This document shows positions 2,934-11,831 of a DNA stretch of 39,912 bases, piece after piece. Below the pieces are notes generated by a model. That model saw nothing but the letters and a program-made list of their open reading frames with translations. It did not search any database and was not told the DNA's origin. Numbering within the stretch: the stretch's first letter is position 1; the number at the start of each line of letters is the position of its first letter. The translations under genes and the position numbers were made by a program. The DNA comes from an uncultured Verrucomicrobiota bacterium. Lineage in GTDB: Bacteria; Verrucomicrobiota; Verrucomicrobiia; Limisphaerales; UBA9464. The DNA lies in NCBI GenBank assembly GCA_903939515.1, contig CAJAHH010000038.1, forward strand, positions 1 to 39,912, given 5' to 3'.

Positions 2934-3309
2934 ATGCTACGTCAAACCATCGCCCGGATTATTCCGAGGAACGGTTGGGCAACAGAATGGGTGAGAACGG
3001 TGTCAGGGGCTGGGATGCAGCCATGGATTTTCGCGGAATGAGCCGTTCAGCGTCATCCTGGCATCCGACGGTTCCTGTCGTATGAAAGGGCCTTAGCCTT
3101 CGTCCCGGCTGGGCACTGGTGCATCGCTGACATTCCAGCGTGCCATCTGCGCATAGCACTCCTCGCAGGATACGGTACTGTCTGCCTCACAGCGCATCCA
3201 TGGACTGCCCGGGTTCTCCCTTGCCGTCGTGCGTTCCGGGAGGGTCAATCCTTACTTGAATGCGCGCGACGGCGACGGCGTCCGCGATTTGCGTTGTTTG
3301 ACTCAAGCC
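2934..3309. other. Divergent intergenic region with no confident gene
   Basis: About 376 bases between hscB (minus) and the ThuA giant (plus), presumably carrying both promoters. I see no clear -35/-10 pair, terminator or RNA gene. The only coding candidate is the short cysteine-containing frame at 3093-3197 on the minus strand, listed separately. The open frame that continues upstream of 3310 lacks export character and reads through this spacer. Confidence 0.5.
3093..3197 (-). CDS. Possible 34-residue cysteine-containing small protein
   Basis: A short frame ATG to TAA encoding about 34 residues, starting MRCEADSTVSCEECYAQMAR. Three cysteines fall in the first 14 residues, in the pattern C-x7-C-x2-C, which could bind a metal. 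It lies upstream of hscB on the same strand, so a link with Fe-S biogenesis is imaginable. There is no good ribosome-binding site, no recognised family and a short length, so chance is quite possible. Confidence 0.22.
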   Translation of the reverse strand: MRCEADSTVSCEECYAQMARWNVSDAPVPSRDEG

Positions 3310-6300
3310 ATGAAACAGTTCCTTAGATCCTTCCTGCCGATGTGGGCCTTGTTGGCGCTCACTGTCGGACTTCACGCCGCTCCGCTCCGCGTCTTCATTC
3401 GCGGCGGCGTCAAAACCCACGGCCCCAACCAGCACGATCATCCGCGATTCCTGGGTGAATGGGCCAAGCTCCTCACCGAACGAGGAATCACCGCCAGCGG
3501 CGCTATGGAATTTCCGACGGCGTCCCAGTTGGAGGCGACCGATGTGCTGGTGATTTACGCAGCCGACGGCATGAAAATTATCGGCGACGAACGTGCACGC
3601 TTTGAGCACTTCCTGTCCCGCGGTGGTGGCGTGGTGGTGCTTCACGACGGCGTGGTCAGCGGTGATCAGCACGAGTGGTGCAAGAAAATCATCGGTGGAG
3701 CCTGGCGCTGGGATGGCGACAAGAAGACTCAGTGGCACGAGGGGAATGTCGGGGTCTATTTCGTCAATCCCGAGCATCCGATTGTGAAGGGCGTGTCCAA
3801 CTTCGACTGGAAGGACGAGGTCTACAACCGCCTCGATATGGCCGAGGACGTCAACGTGTTGGCCCAGAGTTTTGTCGATGTCTTCAGCATCTGGCCCCAG
3901 CTGTGGACTTATGAGAAGACCTTGCCCGAGGCCAAGGCTCCCTACCGGGCTTTCGTGAGCATCCCCGGTCACGAGTACGACTCGTTCAACACTCCCCATT
4001 ACCGGGCCATTTTGCTGCGCGGCATCGCCTGGGCCGGTAAGCGCGCCAACGCCGATGAGTTCTGCAAGCCCGAGGAATTGGCTTCGCTTACATACCCGGC
4101 CGGGGGCCCGAAGCCCGCTGCCGAGGCGCTCAAAACCTTCCAGACTCATCCGGAGTTCAATGTGTCCCTGACGGCCGACGAGAACGTGGCCGAGAAGATC
4201 ATGTCCATGGACTGGGACGAGAAGGGTCGACTCTGGGTGGTTGAGACGCCCGAGTACCCGGGAGGTCGCGACGTGAACAAGAATGACTTCAAGGCTTATT
4301 GGAACCGCGCCCAAGACCCCAAGACCTTCCCTGTTGGCGGCAAGCAACCTCGCAAGCCGCTCGATCGCATCTCCATTCTGGAAGACACCAACGGCGATGG
4401 CGTGGCCGACAAGCGTACCCTTTTTGCTGACGGTCTGGAACTGCCCACCTCGCTGGTGTTCTGGAAAGACGGCGTGATCGTGGCTCAGGCCCCAGACATC
4501 TTGTGGATTCGGGACACCAATGGTGACGGTCGGGCGGACAAGGTTGAAACCCTCTACACCGGCTGGGGTACCTTCGACACCCATGCGGTCATTAGCAATT
4601 TCCGCTGGGGCATGGATGGCTGGATTTACGGATCGGTGGGCTACACCCGCGGACGCGTGAAGTCTGGCGACGGATCCAAGGACTTCGGCGACATCGCCGC
4701 GGGTATTTACCGCTTCAAGCCCGATGGCTCCGCAGTCGAGCAAATCGCCGCCGGAGGTTGCAATACTTGGGGCTGTGAGATCGCACCCGACAACGAAATC
4801 CTCTTCACGACGGCCACCTGCGGCGAGCCCATCTGCCACGTGGTGATCCCTGAGAAGATCTTGGCTCGCGGACAGGTGGGCGGCATGAAGTCGTTCTTCA
4901 ATGTCATTGAGGAGAACAAGATTTACCCGGCCTTCGATGAGAAGCGCCAGCCGTACGTACAAATCGACTGGGTGGGGGCTTGGACCGCAGCCGCGGGCGC
5001 GACAATTTATGACGGCGGCGCTTGGCCGGCCAAGTGGGCGGCCAATGAGCGGTATTCGTTCTTCATGGGTGAGGCCACACGCCAGCTCTTCCACCACGAG
5101 TTCCTGGACCCGAAGGGCGCGACTTATCAGGGCCGCAAAGAAGACGGCCGCAAGCAGACCGAGTTCCTCGCCAGCACCGACTACTGGTTCCGTCCCATTC
5201 ACAGCCGCGTAGGCCCAGACGGGGCCATCTATCTGGTCGATCTCTACAATCAAATCGCCGTCCACAATGACACCCGGGGTCCGGGTCACGGCGCCCGCAA
5301 TGCGGCCTCTCGCCCGGATCGGGATCACCACTTCACCCGCATTTGGCGTATCCAGCACAAGGACGCCAAGACGCTGCCGACCGCGAAGTTTGATCGCAAC
5401 GACGCGGAGACCCTGGTCACCGCCCTCAACCATCCGAATGGTTGGGTTCGTTCCACGGCCAATCGCCTCCTGGTTGAGCAGCCCGCCGTGTTGGAATCGG
5501 CATTGCCCGGTTTGGGACAGTTGATTGGCGACACTGCCGCCCCGGCTGAATCTCGCATCCAAGCCTTGTGGCTTTACCGCGTAGCCGCCTCCAACGGCCC
5601 CGTGCCCTGGGACGATGCGGTCGCCGCCTCGGTCATGAACGATTCGTCCCCCTGGGTTCGCAAGAATGCCCTTCGGGTGGCTACCGAGTTGGTGGCCAAC
5701 CCAGCCAATCTCCGCACCGAAGATTCCGATCCGCTGAAGACCACGGAGAAAGCCGTCATCGAGCGCCTGAGCGACCCCGATGCTCGCGTACGCATTAACG
5801 CCCTGATGGCCGCGGGTTCCTTGCCGGCGTCGCGTGCCTTGGCCAATGCCGTGGTGGCCGCTTGGCCCAACCTCAAGGACCGTTGGCTGGAGTCCGCCGC
5901 CGTCGGTGCCGCCGACAAGGATCCGTTGCTCTTCCTCGAGGCGGTCTTTGCTGCCCAAGATCCGGCTTTCGTTGTTGGATATGTGCCGCACCTGGCTCGG
6001 ATGGTTGCCAATCGACGGGATGCCGCGCTGGCCGGACGCATGGTGCAATTGCTCGCGCGCCAACCGGCCGCCACCGACGGCCTTAAGGCGGCCGCCCTCG
6101 AAGCGTTGTCGGCCGCGCTCGACGCCCGCCTACAACCCGAACTCGATGCGGCCAATTTGGGAGCCTTGAAGTCGCTACTGGCTTCGGGTCGCACCGCCGG
6201 TTCGGTGTTGCCCTTGGTGGCCCGCTGGAAGGCAGCCCCGGCCTTGTCGGCCGAACTCAAGCCCGCCATCCAGGCCGCCTCGGCCCAGATCGGGGACGCC

Positions 6301-8457
6301 GCGTTGTCGGATGCCTCTCGCGGCCAGATCGCCGCCAATTTAATTGGTGTCCGCAATATCGATCCGTCGGTGATCCCGGCCGTCGCTTCTCTGGTGACCC
6401 CGGCCGTGAGTCCGGCGCTCCAGAAATCGCTCATCGAGGCCCTGGGTTCCGCCCCCGAAGGTGGGATGGCTCTGGTCCAACGATTCGCCCAGTTGCCCAC
6501 CGGTCAGTTGGAGACGGCCTTTGCTCAGGTACTCAAGCGGGCCGACTCCTCGGCCGCCTTCATCGAGGCGCTCGCCGCTCACAAGATCGACGTGGTGCTG
6601 CTCGGACCTGCACGCTTGCACCGTCTCCGTACCCACGGTGACGCCAAAATTGCGGCCCGCGCCACCCAGGTCATCGACGACCTGAAGGGGCCCGAGGCCA
6701 AGGAGAAGGACGCCCTCATCGCCAAGTTGCAGCCGGAAGTGGAGAAGCCGGGCGATGTGGCCAACGGTAAGAAGGTCTACACCGCCAACTGCGCCGGCTG
6801 CCACATTTACAAGGGTGAGGGCCGTAACTTGGCTCCCAACCTCAACGGCATGGGAGCCCACGGTGCGGCCGACTTGCTCATTCACATCGTGGATCCGAAC
6901 CGCGTGGTCGAGCCGAACTTCATCAGCGTTAGCATCGAGACCAAGTCGGGCGATCAGTTCGATGGCATCATCGAGCGTGAGAATGCCTCGGAAGTCGTCC
7001 TGCGCGATGCGTCGTCCGACCACACCTTGCGTGTTTCCGACATCGCCAGTCGCAAGTCCACGGGGCGCTCGCTCATGCCTGAGGGCTTCGATGCCTTGGG
7101 CGCGGCGGCTCTGCGGGATTTGCTGGCCTACATGACCGTGGATGACAATCGCTTCCGCATCATTGATTTGGGTGGGGCCTTCACGGCCAACAGCGGTCGA
7201 GGCCTCTACATCACGCCGGAGCAGGAGGACGACACCGTCAGTTTCCGTAGCTACGGCCTCAAGCGCGTCGAAGACATTCCTTTCGATGTGATTAGCCCTG
7301 AGAAAGCCGTCGCCAACGTGGTCGTTCTCAAGGGGGGAGCGTCGGACTCCTGGTCGCGCAAGAGTCTGCCTAAGCGGGTCGAGGTGAAGGTGGGTGTGGC
7401 GGCCTCCAAGCTGCACATCCTGGGCGGCGTGGCCGGCTGGGGCTATCCCGCGGTGGGCGAGAAGATCAATGCCCTGAAAATGACGGCTGTTTTTGAAGGC
7501 GGCGCGACGCAGGAGATCCTCCTGAAGAACGGCGTAGAAATCGCCGACTACCGCGGTCGTACGGATGTGACGGGTTCCAAGGGATTGCCGAGTTGGACCA
7601 AGGGGCCCGGCCAAATCCGCTGGTTGACCAAGAACATTACCAAGCCCGGTGTGATCCAGAAATTGGTGCTGGAGAGCTACGACAATGAAGTGGCGCCGAC
7701 CCTCTTCGCCATCACGGCCGAGTTGGGTGCGCCGGCGGGACCTGAGCAGGCGCAGGCCAATCCGGTGGCGGCACCGCTGAAGTGGGGCAATGGGCTCAAG
7801 ACACTGCTCATTGGCGGTGGTTCTTCGCACGACTACAACCGCTGGTTCAACTTGGCGGACGTAGCGATGCTCAATGCTTCCGGGCATATTTCGGCCAACT
7901 ACCGCGAGCCACAGGACGTGAGTGTCGAGGCTGTGACGTCCGCGGACATCCTGCTCATCAGCGCCAACAAAGCCTTTCCCGATGCGGCGGTGCGCGAGGC
8001 CATCGCTGCCCATGCTGCGGCCGGCAAGGGACTGGTGCTGTTGCACCCGGGCCTGTGGTACAACTGGGCCAACTGGCCCGCCTACAACCGTGAGTTGGCC
8101 GGCGGCGGTTCCCGCGGCCATGACGCTTACGGGGAGTTCGAAGTCACCGTCACCGGCGTGAAGCATCCCTTGCTTCAGGGTGTTCCGGAGCACTTTAAGC
8201 TCAGCGACGAGCTCTACCACTACGAGGCCGACTCGGCTGGAACGCCCATTCAGGTGCTGGCCACCGCCCACTCTAAGTCCAAGAACAAGGACTTCCCGCA
8301 GGTCTTTGTGGTGAACCATCCCAAGGCCCGCATCGCCGGCATCACGTTGGGTCACGACGCCATCGCTCACGGGCATATCGCCTATCAGCAGTTGCTCAAG
8401 AACGCGGTGCTGTGGACGGCTCACAAGGAGGCCTGGATCACGGCCAACGCGAAGTAA
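3310..8457 (+). CDS. ThuA / PVC-type dehydrogenase / HEAT / heme-binding giant protein
   Basis: An exported protein of about 1714 residues built from modules known in PVC bacteria. After a signal peptide (MKQFLRSFLPMWALLALTVGLHA) come: a ThuA-like domain (about 25-245); a PVC-type membrane-bound-dehydrogenase propeller (about 275-680, with DTNGDGVADKR and DTNGDGRADKV repeats); a HEAT-like helical region (about 684-1127); a planctomycete-type heme domain with CAGCH at 1161-1165 and likely distal Met 1256 in SLMPEGFDALG; a beta-rich segment (about 1280-1470); and a second ThuA-like domain (about 1487-1714, LKTLLIGGGSSHDYNRWFN). The family is thought to act in periplasmic sugar or polymer oxidation; the substrate is unknown. 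ATG 3310 is chosen over a longer frame because it begins the signal peptide. A strong hairpin follows the stop. Confidence 0.88.
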   Translation: MKQFLRSFLPMWALLALTVGLHAAPLRVFIRGGVKTHGPNQHDHPRFLGEWAKLLTERGITASGAMEFPTASQLEATDVLVIYAADGMKIIGDERARFEHFLSRGGGVVVLHDGVVSGDQHEWCKKIIGGAWRWDGDKKTQWHEGNVGVYFVNPEHPIVKGVSNFDWKDEVYNRLDMAEDVNVLAQSFVDVFSIWPQLWTYEKTLPEAKAPYRAFVSIPGHEYDSFNTPHYRAILLRGIAWAGKRANADEFCKPEELASLTYPAGGPKPAAEALKTFQTHPEFNVSLTADENVAEKIMSMDWDEKGRLWVVETPEYPGGRDVNKNDFKAYWNRAQDPKTFPVGGKQPRKPLDRISILEDTNGDGVADKRTLFADGLELPTSLVFWKDGVIVAQAPDILWIRDTNGDGRADKVETLYTGWGTFDTHAVISNFRWGMDGWIYGSVGYTRGRVKSGDGSKDFGDIAAGIYRFKPDGSAVEQIAAGGCNTWGCEIAPDNEILFTTATCGEPICHVVIPEKILARGQVGGMKSFFNVIEENKIYPAFDEKRQPYVQIDWVGAWTAAAGATIYDGGAWPAKWAANERYSFFMGEATRQLFHHEFLDPKGATYQGRKEDGRKQTEFLASTDYWFRPIHSRVGPDGAIYLVDLYNQIAVHNDTRGPGHGARNAASRPDRDHHFTRIWRIQHKDAKTLPTAKFDRNDAETLVTALNHPNGWVRSTANRLLVEQPAVLESALPGLGQLIGDTAAPAESRIQALWLYRVAASNGPVPWDDAVAASVMNDSSPWVRKNALRVATELVANPANLRTEDSDPLKTTEKAVIERLSDPDARVRINALMAAGSLPASRALANAVVAAWPNLKDRWLESAAVGAADKDPLLFLEAVFAAQDPAFVVGYVPHLARMVANRRDAALAGRMVQLLARQPAATDGLKAAALEALSAALDARLQPELDAANLGALKSLLASGRTAGSVLPLVARWKAAPALSAELKPAIQAASAQIGDAALSDASRGQIAANLIGVRNIDPSVIPAVASLVTPAVSPALQKSLIEALGSAPEGGMALVQRFAQLPTGQLETAFAQVLKRADSSAAFIEALAAHKIDVVLLGPARLHRLRTHGDAKIAARATQVIDDLKGPEAKEKDALIAKLQPEVEKPGDVANGKKVYTANCAGCHIYKGEGRNLAPNLNGMGAHGAADLLIHIVDPNRVVEPNFISVSIETKSGDQFDGIIERENASEVVLRDASSDHTLRVSDIASRKSTGRSLMPEGFDALGAAALRDLLAYMTVDDNRFRIIDLGGAFTANSGRGLYITPEQEDDTVSFRSYGLKRVEDIPFDVISPEKAVANVVVLKGGASDSWSRKSLPKRVEVKVGVAASKLHILGGVAGWGYPAVGEKINALKMTAVFEGGATQEILLKNGVEIADYRGRTDVTGSKGLPSWTKGPGQIRWLTKNITKPGVIQKLVLESYDNEVAPTLFAITAELGAPAGPEQAQANPVAAPLKWGNGLKTLLIGGGSSHDYNRWFNLADVAMLNASGHISANYREPQDVSVEAVTSADILLISANKAFPDAAVREAIAAHAAAGKGLVLLHPGLWYNWANWPAYNRELAGGGSRGHDAYGEFEVTVTGVKHPLLQGVPEHFKLSDELYHYEADSAGTPIQVLATAHSKSKNKDFPQVFVVNHPKARIAGITLGHDAIAHGHIAYQQLLKNAVLWTAHKEAWITANAK

Positions 8458-8477: not shown

Positions 8478-8522
8478 CAGCGCGGCGGGTGTGCCAATCA
8501 CCCCGCCGCGCTGTTTGTTTTT
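8478..8522 (+). terminator. Rho-independent terminator after the ThuA giant gene
   Basis: A perfect 12-bp stem, CAGCGCGGCGGG (8478-8489) pairing with CCCGCCGCGCTG (8502-8513). It can be extended by TG/CA around a single bulged C. The T-rich tract TTTGTTTTT (8514-8522) follows. It sits 20 bases after the stop codon at 8457, so it should separate this gene from the peroxidase fusion downstream. Confidence 0.88.
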
Positions 8523-8598: not shown

Positions 8599-10401
8599 AT
8601 GAACCACCGCATTCTTGCACCGAACGGTTGGAGAACCTTTTGGACCATGGTCCTGATCGGGTGGGCCATGGCTCTCCGAGCGGGGGCTGTCACTCTGGAT
8701 TTAGACTTTCGGCCCACCTGGGATGCCAAACCGCTGGAGCTCGAGGCGCTGCGCCATGAGACCGGGGCCGGCGAGTTGCTGTCGGTGACCCGCCTGAGCG
8801 CTCTGTTATCGGGAGCCGCGCTGGAGACCGTTGACGGGAAGTGGGTAGAACTGAGTCCGGCCCATGCGTGGATCGATCTGGCCTCGGGTCGTTTGCGTTG
8901 GACCTTGAATCCGGTTCCGCCGGGCCAATACCGGGCGCTGCGTTTTTGGATTGGGCCGGACTCGGTCGAGAATCACGCTGATCCAGCCAAACGGTTGCCC
9001 GACGATCCCTTGTCCCCCGCTCTCAATGGTCTGCATTGGGACTGGCAGGGCGGGTACATCTTCATGGCGCTGGAGGGGCGCTATCGTTCGGGCACTGGTC
9101 CCATCGCCGGCTATTCGCTGCACTTCGCCCGGGACCCCCGCCGCACCCGGGTCTCATTGGCCACCTCGCTAGATTTGCGACAAGACCGCGTCCTCCGGTT
9201 GGACTGGGATCTGGCATCCTTGTTCCGCTTGCCGAGGCCGATCTCATTGGCGCGGGATGGGCATTCCACCCATTCGCGCGAAGAGGATTCATTGGCCGAT
9301 GCCCTCGGCCGAAACCTGCCCTTGTCGTTTCGTGCAGGGGAATTGCTCGATAGCCCAGGGGTCGCCCAGAAGGCGACGGTTCCTCCCATCATTCCCAAAG
9401 ACCTGCCCTCAAAATACACGCCCCATCGATTCGCAATGGCGGGAACCTTTCCCATGCCGGCGCTCCCGCGGGACAATCCGTTGATCGAGGAACGGATCGC
9501 GTTGGGACGACGGTTGTTTCAAGAGACTGCCTTGTCGGCCGATCGATCGATCTCGTGCGCCTCTTGCCACGCGGCGGCGACAGGCTTTTCAGACTCGCGT
9601 CGTTTCAGTTCGGGCGTGCGCGGCCAGTTGGGAACCCGGCAGTCCATGGCCTTGATTAATTTGGCCTGGAAGCGGGAGTTCTTCTGGGACGGCCGGGCCC
9701 GGTCGTTGCGAGATCAGGTATTAATACCCATCCAGGATCCGACGGAGATGGCCGAGACCTTGAAGGCGGTGGTTAGCAAACTGTCGGGAATACCCGAGTA
9801 TCCGGCCCTGTTCGAAAAAGCGTTTGGGACTCCGCGCATCGACGCCGAACGCATCGCGTTGGCGTTGGAACAATTTGTCCTGACCCTCACCGGGTTCCGG
9901 TCCCGGTTTGATGGGTCGATTCAAGGAAAGGCCAGCCTCAGCGATCTGGAACGCCGGGGGTTGGAACTCTTCATGACCGAGAACGAACCGCGTATGGGGC
10001 AGCGTGGGGCCGACTGCTTCCACTGCCATGGCGGGATGCTCTTCACCGATCACCAATTTCACGACAATGGATTGGATCTCGAACCCAGCGATCCCGGTCG
10101 GGCCGGCGTCACCCGTCGTAATTCCGATCGGGGCAAGTTCGTGACGCCGACCCTGCGCAACATCGCGCGGACTGCTCCCTACATGCATGACGGCCGCTTC
10201 CAGACGCTGGAGGAAGTGGTGCGTCATTACTCAGAGGGCGTTCAGGCGAGCCCTAATCTGGACCCCAACTTGGCCAAACACACCGCCGGGGGTCTTCATC
10301 TCAGCCCCGACGATCAATCCGCCCTGGTGGCGTTCCTGAAAACTTTGAGTGAACCGATGGGCCAGACGTCCGTTTCGCAGCCGGAGCGGGTGAAGGATTG
10401 A
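8599..10401 (+). CDS. Fusion of MbnP-like domain and diheme cytochrome c peroxidase (MbnH/MauG family)
   Basis: A 600-residue exported protein. The signal peptide spans about residues 10-30 (WTMVLIGWAMALRAGA). Residues about 31-235 resemble MbnP, the periplasmic copper-binding family: VTLDLDF, then VTRLSALLSG, PPGQYRALRFWIGPDSV, and the hallmark LHWDWQGGYIFMALEG with Trp147 and Trp149. Residues about 265-590 are a diheme peroxidase with CASCH (320-324), CFHCH (473-477) and a probable distal Met529 in YMHDGRF. In known pairs, MbnH, a MauG relative, oxidises a tryptophan of MbnP to kynurenine, which creates the copper site; here both partners appear on one chain. Whether the peroxidase half is MbnH proper or a general BCCP/MauG type cannot be settled by eye. 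No methanobactin biosynthesis genes are nearby. ATG 8587 is an alternative start. Confidence 0.85.
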   Translation: MNHRILAPNGWRTFWTMVLIGWAMALRAGAVTLDLDFRPTWDAKPLELEALRHETGAGELLSVTRLSALLSGAALETVDGKWVELSPAHAWIDLASGRLRWTLNPVPPGQYRALRFWIGPDSVENHADPAKRLPDDPLSPALNGLHWDWQGGYIFMALEGRYRSGTGPIAGYSLHFARDPRRTRVSLATSLDLRQDRVLRLDWDLASLFRLPRPISLARDGHSTHSREEDSLADALGRNLPLSFRAGELLDSPGVAQKATVPPIIPKDLPSKYTPHRFAMAGTFPMPALPRDNPLIEERIALGRRLFQETALSADRSISCASCHAAATGFSDSRRFSSGVRGQLGTRQSMALINLAWKREFFWDGRARSLRDQVLIPIQDPTEMAETLKAVVSKLSGIPEYPALFEKAFGTPRIDAERIALALEQFVLTLTGFRSRFDGSIQGKASLSDLERRGLELFMTENEPRMGQRGADCFHCHGGMLFTDHQFHDNGLDLEPSDPGRAGVTRRNSDRGKFVTPTLRNIARTAPYMHDGRFQTLEEVVRHYSEGVQASPNLDPNLAKHTAGGLHLSPDDQSALVAFLKTLSEPMGQTSVSQPERVKD

Positions 10402-10460
10402 GCCATTGGCCGCACCGATCCTGTAACCCCAATCCACTCCCACCGTCTCTCTATCAACTC

Positions 10461-11831
10461 ATGAACACCCGGAAACTTCAGATCGCGGCGCTCGCGTGCT
10501 GCCTGTCGAATACCTGGCTCCCGTTGCAGTCGAATGCTGCATCGCAATGGCCTAGCTGGCGGGGCCCACAAGCCAACGGAGTGGCTACCGACGCCCACCC
10601 ACCGATCCAATGGAGCGAGACCAATCATGTGCAATGGAAGGTGGCCCTCCCGGGGCGGGGGAGCTCCACACCGATCCTCTGGGACGATCAGGTCTTCATT
10701 CTCACGGCCATCCCTACTGGGCCTGAAGCCGCTGCGGAGACTGCCGATGCCAGCGGTCAACCGCCTGATCGGTCCGAGCGCCCTCGGAGAGGCGGCGCAG
10801 GAGGCGGCGGAGGCATGGTCGATCGTCCGACCCGGGCCCAGCAGTTCACGGTGCTGAGCTTCGATCGCAAGACCGGCAAGCAGCGATGGACTCAATCTCC
10901 GCGCACCCAATTGCCGCACGAAGGCCATCACAAGGACCACGGGTTTGCTTCGGCCTCTCCGGTCACCGATGGCAAGCACCTGATTGTCTCGTTCGGATCG
11001 TTTGGCCTCTACGGGTACGACCTCAAAGGTAAGCTTCTCTGGGAAAAGGACCTCGGCGACATGCGCACCCGAAACAGCTTCGGCGAGGGCAGTTCGCCGG
11101 CCCTCGACGGCAACACGGTGGTCGTGCTCTGGGATCATGAGGGAGACGACTTCATCGTGGCCCTCGACAAGCGTGACGGTCGGGAACTGTGGCGGCAGAC
11201 GCGCGATGAGCCCACTGGTTGGTGCACCCCGTTGATCATCAACCACGGCGGTCGCAAACAGGTAATCGTCAACGGCACCAACAAGGTCCGCAGCTACGAC
11301 CTCAAGGACGGCAAATTGCTCTGGGAGTGTGCCGGGCAGACGGTCAATGCCATCCCCTCGGCGGTCGCCTCCCAGGATCGTGTTTTTGTGATGAGTGGTT
11401 ATCGGGGCAATGCGCTTCAGGCCCTTCGCCTAGATCGTTCCGGCGATCTCACCGGTACTGACGGCATTGTCTGGTCGCACGCCAAGAGTACCCCGTACGT
11501 CCCGTCGCCCTTGCTGGTGAGTGACACGCTGTACTTTATTTCCAACAACAGCGCCCTGCTTTCAGCCTTCGACGCCGTCTCCGGCAAGGCTCATTTCGAA
11601 GCGGAGCGTCTGGACGGGCTCAACGGTGTTTACGCCTCCCCGGTGGCCGCCGATGGGCGAATTTACGTGGTCGGGCGAGATGGCAACACGGCGGTCTTAC
11701 GCCACGGCCCTCGATTGGAAATTTTGTCCAAGAACCACCTCGATGACGGATTCGATGCCTCGCCGGCGATCGTGGGTCGGCAGATTTTCTTGCGCGGCCG
11801 GCAGAGCCTTTACTGCATCAGCGAAAGGTAA
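10461..11831 (+). CDS. PQQ-binding-like beta-propeller repeat protein
   Basis: An exported 456-residue protein with a signal peptide (about residues 6-26, ending SNAA) and the opening typical of PVC PQQ-like propellers, WPSWRGPQANGVATD. Repeated blades follow the PQQ pattern: LSFDRKTGKQRWTQ, YGYDLKGKLLWEKDLG, VALDKRDGRELWRQ, RSYDLKDGKLLWECAG. The family ranges from BamB-like scaffolds to quinoprotein-like enzymes; catalytic PQQ residues cannot be confirmed here. A low-complexity insert of Arg/Gly (RPRRGGAGGGGG) lies at roughly residue 111. It starts about 60 bases after the peroxidase fusion and may be co-transcribed. It ends about 50 bases from the convergent DUF1501 gene. Confidence 0.87.
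   Translation: MNTRKLQIAALACCLSNTWLPLQSNAASQWPSWRGPQANGVATDAHPPIQWSETNHVQWKVALPGRGSSTPILWDDQVFILTAIPTGPEAAAETADASGQPPDRSERPRRGGAGGGGGMVDRPTRAQQFTVLSFDRKTGKQRWTQSPRTQLPHEGHHKDHGFASASPVTDGKHLIVSFGSFGLYGYDLKGKLLWEKDLGDMRTRNSFGEGSSPALDGNTVVVLWDHEGDDFIVALDKRDGRELWRQTRDEPTGWCTPLIINHGGRKQVIVNGTNKVRSYDLKDGKLLWECAGQTVNAIPSAVASQDRVFVMSGYRGNALQALRLDRSGDLTGTDGIVWSHAKSTPYVPSPLLVSDTLYFISNNSALLSAFDAVSGKAHFEAERLDGLNGVYASPVAADGRIYVVGRDGNTAVLRHGPRLEILSKNHLDDGFDASPAIVGRQIFLRGRQSLYCISER

Follow-up and report, generated by a model that had tools for sequence, protein, structure and literature searches.

A gene in which a copper-binding domain of the MbnP type appears to be joined to a diheme peroxidase raises the question of whether a copper protein can carry, within one chain, the enzyme that matures it. 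MbnH is said to oxidise a tryptophan of MbnP to kynurenine, the two being separate proteins that work as a pair. The gene considered here lies in a stretch of 39,912 nucleotides from an uncultured Verrucomicrobiota bacterium (the window), and the initial annotation, made from the sequence letters, had read it as an MbnP-like domain followed by a diheme domain in a single polypeptide. One 600-codon gene fills positions 8599-10401 of the forward strand from an ATG at 8599, and the open reading frame extends from a mechanical GTG start at 8491 to the stop at 10401 without interruption (Table 1). Both domains are recovered in the one chain by profile (PF20243 and PF03150) and by fold, and Trp147, Trp149, CASCH and CFHCH are found where they had been placed.

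Table 1. Layout of the fused gene, in window coordinates.
Feature	Positions	Strand	Basis
Fused gene, 600 aa: signal peptide, MbnP domain, linker, diheme MauG/MbnH-type domain	8599..10401	+	ORF and Pfam
Probable Sec signal peptide, residues 1-30	8599..8688	+	judged by eye; helix 10-28 in model
MbnP domain, residues 32-220	8692..9258	+	PF20243; fold match to 7l6g
H146-W147-D148-W149, WxW motif (in HWDWQ); W147 is the predicted kynurenine	9034..9045	+	
H175, predicted first copper ligand	9121..9123	+	conservation and alignment with classical MbnPs
H225 (THS motif), predicted second copper ligand	9271..9273	+	conservation and alignment with classical MbnPs
Linker, residues 236-284	9304..9450	+	
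Diheme domain, residues 285-590	9451..10368	+	PF03150; 6e1c fold match
CASCH (320-324), first heme c site, peroxidatic heme	9556..9570	+	CxxCH in 65/65 distinct fusions
CFHCH (473-477), second heme c site	10015..10029	+	CxxCH in 65/65 distinct fusions
Y544, at MauG residue 294 (Tyr ligand, six-coordinate heme)	10228..10230	+	ungapped alignment

The assignment of the first half to MbnP had been made by eye, and it holds for the Pfam family and for the fold. PF20243 matches residues 32-220, inside the range of 31-235 where such a match had been expected, with 87.1 bits against a cut-off of 27 (E 1.8e-24), and residues 29-256 of a predicted model of the window protein superpose on the MbnP structure 7l6g with a Z score of 19.0 (213 residues at 3.3 A), the model of a second fusion, from Haloferula rosea, giving a Z score of 18.4 (206 residues at 2.9 A). 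It does not hold for the narrower family TIGR04052 (MbnP_like_WxW), of whose equivalog cut-off of 140 bits the MbnP half reaches 23.3. A profile built from 17 sequences finds the MbnP structure (E 4.3e-4) and aligns the region of W147 with the WNW of 7l6g; a phmmer search of the solved structures with the whole protein returned no MbnP structure, and the top 50 rows of a Foldseek search are occupied by the diheme half, with no MbnP row amongst them.

The residues that would be needed for a kynurenine-copper site are strongly conserved. Across 65 distinct fusions W147, H175 and H225 are invariant, W149 is kept in 62 with proline in the other three, and H146 is kept in 63 with tyrosine in the other two; in 30 MbnPs from Bacteroidota, W147, W149 and H175 are each present in all 30 and H146 in none. 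H175 aligns with the histidine of 'HLGS.GC' in the classical MbnPs of Methylocystis, Pseudoalteromonas and Trichormus, and H225 with the methionine of 'CMS' or 'CMG', an alignment made for these three classical MbnPs only. The sequence of 7l6g carries 'HVGSTGC' and 'GCMS'. The H225 column is not cleanly aligned in the Bacteroidota, where, counted from a listing, 26 of the 30 have Met or His in this stretch and four have neither.

A study of MbnP published in PNAS in 2021 reportedly described a copper site with one His and one Met ligand and a kynurenine nearby. We take the ligands of 7l6g to fit the positions of H175 and H225 in the fusion, and the position of W147 to be the kynurenine site of MbnP, a family that presumably bears kynurenine. 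Because H225 appears to stand at the place of the Met of classical MbnP, the copper site of the fusion is predicted, from these alignments, to be a His/His/kynurenine site made up of W147, H175 and H225. Residues 31-235 contain no cysteine and the record of 7l6g is titled as a four-Cys motif protein; the four cysteines of the TIGR04052 family, together with the Met of classical MbnP, are absent from the MbnP half of the fusion. A single unfused Verrucomicrobial MbnP (L152, G303:C22:673852-674397, minus strand) lacks both tryptophans of the WxW motif as well as the THS motif, and has no diheme ORF within its 3.5-kb stretch. A fused copy lies about 7.6 kb from it on the same contig.

For the second half, PF03150 (CCP_MauG) matches residues 298-445 with an E value of 1e-52, and a comparison with MbnH, MauG and the bacterial cytochrome c peroxidases (CcPs), as the initial annotation had proposed, places it nearest to MbnH by profile, by sequence and by fold, although it misses the cut-off of that family. 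The MbnH profile TIGR04039 ranks best in NCBIfam with 215.5 bits (cut-off 362.85), followed by MauG (TIGR03791) at 184.2 bits, again under its cut-off (443.85). Among solved structures 6e1c is nearest in sequence (E 9.4e-41), and on it the diheme half superposes with a Z score of 31.7 (299 residues at 2.0 A) in the window model and 32.5 in the Haloferula rosea model, against 25.5-29.3 for MauG in the two models. We take 6e1c to be MbnH; its PDB title names a MauG-like protein associated with copper homeostasis. As both halves of the fusion score under the NCBIfam cut-offs, on profile scores they are relatives of the named equivalogs rather than members of them.

Y544 of the diheme half aligns without a gap to residue 294 of MauG and is Tyr in all 65 distinct fusions and, in a larger set, in 86 of 86 fused and 31 of 31 MbnP-adjacent enzymes. 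Tyr-His ligation of the six-coordinate heme has been described for both MauG and BthA, and the near-IR feature attributed to bis-Fe(IV) is gone in the BthA variant Y463H, as in Y294H of MauG (PMC6405878, available in part). Classical bacterial CcPs have a Met ligand at the electron-transfer heme and a loop that carries a distal His (PMC10094543, available in part). Both CxxCH motifs are invariant in the 65 fusions, and position 340, which corresponds to the distal His of the CcP loop, is never His in the 65 examined. A classical CcP is ruled out mainly by Tyr544 in place of Met, the missing distal His being non-discriminating alone because it is also missing from a Met-type enzyme of the same genome. 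That enzyme (contig C13, locus L032), which has Met at the place of Y544, is the one further CCP_MauG enzyme found by a profile search of the window's genome, in which there is no second MbnP.

It could be that the diheme half serves mainly as a peroxidase detoxifying H2O2, with the MbnP half as its copper-loaded electron donor or sensor and no kynurenine formed. The CcP/MauG fold is common to true peroxidases, and the MauG-like BthA retains reduction of H2O2 with an external donor (PMC6405878, available in part), but at the electron-entry heme, where CcPs have Met, the fusions have Tyr throughout, the genome has a separate Met-type enzyme, and W147 is invariant whereas W149 is not fully kept. 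We consider such a role unlikely.

The arrangement recurs in other genomes. Of 50 genomes in the window's own family, 47 give some match to the protein, many along the greater part of it and others by a peroxidase only, and 80 loci were kept from the genome collection out of at least 576 confirmed relatives. In a six-frame scan the MbnP and diheme parts share a single frame in loci from across the Verrucomicrobiota, and the carriers include cultured strains (Haloferula rosea, Haloferula sp. BvORR071, Persicirhabdus sediminis, Roseibacillus persicicus and Pelagicoccus sp. SDUM812005). PF20243 occurs in 14 of 240 Verrucomicrobiota genomes, that of the window included, at 17 places (18 rows, two of which are one broken gene), and 15 of these 17 genes are intact single-frame fusions, the other two being a fusion broken by frameshifts in G157 and an MbnP-only frame of 153 aa in G170.

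In 198 genomes of Bacteroidota, the phylum of Lewinella, 72 matches to PF20243 in 51 genomes include no fusion, since the longest MbnP frame is 352 aa, and in all 30 fetched loci the diheme enzyme is an ORF of its own next to MbnP. In the phylum to which the Gemmatimonadota locus belongs, 14 of 64 genomes match, with 14 of 15 rows in frames no longer than 345 aa and the remaining one in a frame of 527 aa that has no diheme part; amongst nine newly fetched loci there, five have a separate diheme ORF and four have none in the stretch, two of these being at a contig end. Within the Pseudomonadota 11 of 299 genomes match, and the sole fusion is in a MAG (G290, locus L090) that was the centre of that search; nine of the ten other matches were fetched, all with a separate diheme ORF. 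Two further layouts were seen in passing. The MbnP domain is at the C-terminal end of the 527-aa frame (L198:574-2154), the first 300 residues of which have no Pfam match, and in the Bacteroidota loci L096, L101, L105, L106 and L108-L111, mostly of Saprospiraceae, MbnP is followed by two diheme enzymes, the first of which lacks the FWDGR tryptophan and has FTREGG or similar.

In comparisons with three congeners the MbnP half has a dN/dS of 0.10-0.16 and the diheme half one of 0.11-0.12, with the linker looser than both domains at 0.25-0.41; a fourth comparison (L042), which is near saturation, gives 0.21 for the MbnP half and is not computable for the diheme half. The fusion is widespread in the Verrucomicrobiota and under purifying selection. 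A frame break between the halves had been named as a point to check, and there is none: both halves lie in one unbroken frame here and in dozens of relatives, which together with dN/dS rules out a frame error or misassembly. A chance fusion or assembly error without function is scarcely credible, as nothing in the window gene speaks for it and the few relatives broken by stops or frameshifts (L030, L082, L085 and L122) are set against one frame in 65 distinct sequences, cultured strains among them, and dN/dS well below 1 in both halves. Six loci (L091, L093, L094, L097, L107 and L112) hold split genes in the same frame with one stop between them, a class that the search favours in that it finds in-frame neighbours. 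In a quick tree of 102 diheme domains, the 62 fused rows cluster among MbnP-adjacent enzymes (4 label changes against a shuffled mean of 31.7), although the fusion group is drawn open with weak support of 80 and contains three non-fused rows, of which one is an enzyme from Armatimonadetes and two are fragments of loci that are broken or cut. On this tree a single origin of the fusion is likely, though not proven.

Whether the enzyme could reach the tryptophan of its own chain was considered with two AlphaFold2 models, both without hemes, one of the window protein built on 54 fused sequences (mean pLDDT 88.5, pTM 0.86) and one of the Haloferula rosea protein (pLDDT 88.8, pTM 0.84). When the window model is aligned with CcP structures the aligned range begins at 146-150, the WxW motif, in 16 of 21 rows, the exceptions (3o5c, 6fu3, 3hq9, 1rz5 and 4aao) beginning at 281-282. 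For the Haloferula rosea model it begins at 132-133, the equivalent of H146/W147, in 20 of 21 rows, with 3o5c alone excepted, and in both models the WxW segment overlies N-terminal residues of the CcPs. Rows for MauG and MbnH structures are uninformative on docking because in both models their aligned range begins at the diheme domain. DSSP marks isolated bridges at 146 and 275 in the window model and at 132-133 and 256 in the other, positions which in each model are the WxW segment and the start of the diheme domain, the pairing not being given. The alignment ranges suggest that the WxW motif rests against the diheme domain within its own chain.

The same chemistry may instead be intermolecular, with one chain's diheme half modifying the MbnP half of another and the fusion serving for stoichiometry only. 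MbnP and MbnH are a gene pair (PMC3621798, available in part) and split pairs elsewhere must act across two chains, and the linker is the least constrained part of the fusion, but both models appear, by their alignment ranges, to dock WxW on the diheme domain of its own chain; on balance we think this rather improbable. It is also conceivable, though very unlikely, that the product is some other tryptophan modification, for example a hydroxylated or cross-linked WxW, in the manner of MauG acting on methylamine dehydrogenase. The profile scores do fall between the families, with both MbnH and MauG under cut-off, and the two tryptophans are two residues apart, but the MbnP half matches a kynurenine-bearing family, and W149 is Pro in three of the 65 fusions, therefore a cross-link within WxW cannot be general.

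Amongst the fused loci of the series L042-L102 the commonest neighbour of the fusion is a gene for a YHYH (PF14240) protein. Where 2.5 kb or more of upstream sequence was available, which holds for 48 fused loci, in 27 of them a YHYH ORF on the same strand lies within 1 kb, mostly abutting and in two cases downstream; one occurs anywhere in the fetched stretch in 30 of the 48 and none in 18. Pfam confirmed the identity of nine out of nine neighbour proteins tested, plus two more, and in L064, L069, L079 and L087 the YHYH domain is fused to a sulfatase. At the level of genomes PF14240 is found in 14 of 14 that are PF20243-positive against 13 of 226 others (Fisher p 1.2e-15, with kinship ignored), a count that accepts any PF14240 match and in which G236, G239 and G248 have as their strong match a shorter subtype that lies on a different contig; judged by coordinates, a match lies within 2.5 kb in 8 of the 14 MbnP-positive genomes. 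Where MbnP and the diheme enzyme are separate ORFs, no YHYH was present in the fetched stretch (0 of 15 loci), and two of the 30 Bacteroidota MbnP loci had one.

The window's contig has no PF14240 match, a YHYH protein of similar size is encoded elsewhere in its genome, on a different contig (G000:C113:31869-32618), and its closest relatives, L034-L041, show no YHYH in their fetched stretches, L040 being without upstream sequence. The neighbours of the fused gene, at 3229-8457 and 10398-11831, encode a ThuA-DUF7133-cytochrome c protein of 1742 aa and a PQQ-propeller protein, which are not copper genes, and a relative of the former lies upstream in all seven of L034-L041 that have upstream sequence. 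The observation that no methanobactin genes were in view extends, as to MbnB, to the whole genome, in which the profile TIGR04159 has no match. An analysis of phage proteins describes YHYH domains with a predicted Zn site of three His and one Asp (PMC7824862, available in part), and MbnPH-like genes have been noted in other copper operons (PMC9426467, available in part). The fusion is likely to serve at the cell envelope, in scavenging or otherwise handling copper alongside a YHYH-domain protein.

Taken as a whole, the protein is probably a copper protein that is exported and has its own maturation enzyme joined to it. Given the signal peptide and the CxxCH motifs, the chain would be exported and loaded with two c hemes. 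H2O2 would then react at the first heme, and the Tyr544-ligated second heme could reach a high-valent state resembling bis-Fe(IV), in the manner of MauG, MbnH and BthA. Oxidising equivalents might pass by way of conserved tryptophans to W147 and convert it to kynurenine, as in the MbnP/MbnH pair, and kynurenine-147 with the invariant H175 and H225 may form a high-affinity Cu(I) site of the CorA/MopE kind, the fusion providing substrate and enzyme one to one. The proposal in full, that the chain matures itself by converting its own tryptophan intramolecularly into a His/His/kynurenine Cu(I) site, arose once in the Verrucomicrobiota and has in the YHYH protein an undescribed third copper component, is put forward tentatively and with somewhat less than even confidence.

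The access of MbnH to the MbnP tryptophan is difficult to investigate, since two proteins have to come together, and a natural fusion fixes both partner and stoichiometry, so that a single purified chain would suffice for following kynurenine formation, the path of electrons and copper uptake. The fusion further suggests that kynurenine-copper sites reach far beyond the methanotrophs, and the unexplained YHYH family gains a context that can be tested. As for the newness claimed in the initial annotation, no description of an MbnP-diheme fusion was found in the portions available of the literature on MbnP/MbnH, where the two are handled as a pair of genes; earlier mention of fusions is still possible because two central MbnP and MbnH papers fell outside the search. 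The words 'fused' and 'fusion' are absent from 'Genome mining for methanobactins' (PMC3621798), and no such description was found in the available parts of PMC11992049, PMC8788703, PMC9601215 and PMC12607021, the last naming MbnH in its references only.

Of the known systems, the MbnP/MbnH pair (PF20243/TIGR04052 with TIGR04039; 7l6g and 6e1c) has the same folds in the same order, the WxW motif, the conserved His and the Tyr of MauG position 294. The fusion differs from it in being one polypeptide, in having no Cys and, as it appears, His for the classical Met in the MbnP half, in that its halves are under the NCBIfam cut-offs, and in that its genome has no MbnB match. A further likeness is to CorA/CorB and MopE/SACCP of methanotrophs, which have a copper site of two His and a tryptophan-derived kynurenine like the one predicted for the fusion; in CorA the site consists of H64, H114 and Kyn62, and the gene of the CorA/MopE type is co-transcribed with a diheme CcP gene (PMC3912023, available in part). 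These are separate genes, however, and are likened to the fusion by description rather than by sequence or fold. MauG, which functions in TTQ biosynthesis, is like the fusion a diheme enzyme with Tyr294 that modifies protein tryptophans, but its substrate is a separate protein and its product a quinone cross-link, and the fusion is under the cut-off of TIGR03791. Finally, a plasmid locus of Deinococcus radiodurans (L160) has MbnP followed by the diheme enzyme and, like the fusion, His ('QVHFG') at the place of H225, although it has two genes and, unlike the window locus, a hypothetical gene, CopC and CopD after the diheme gene.
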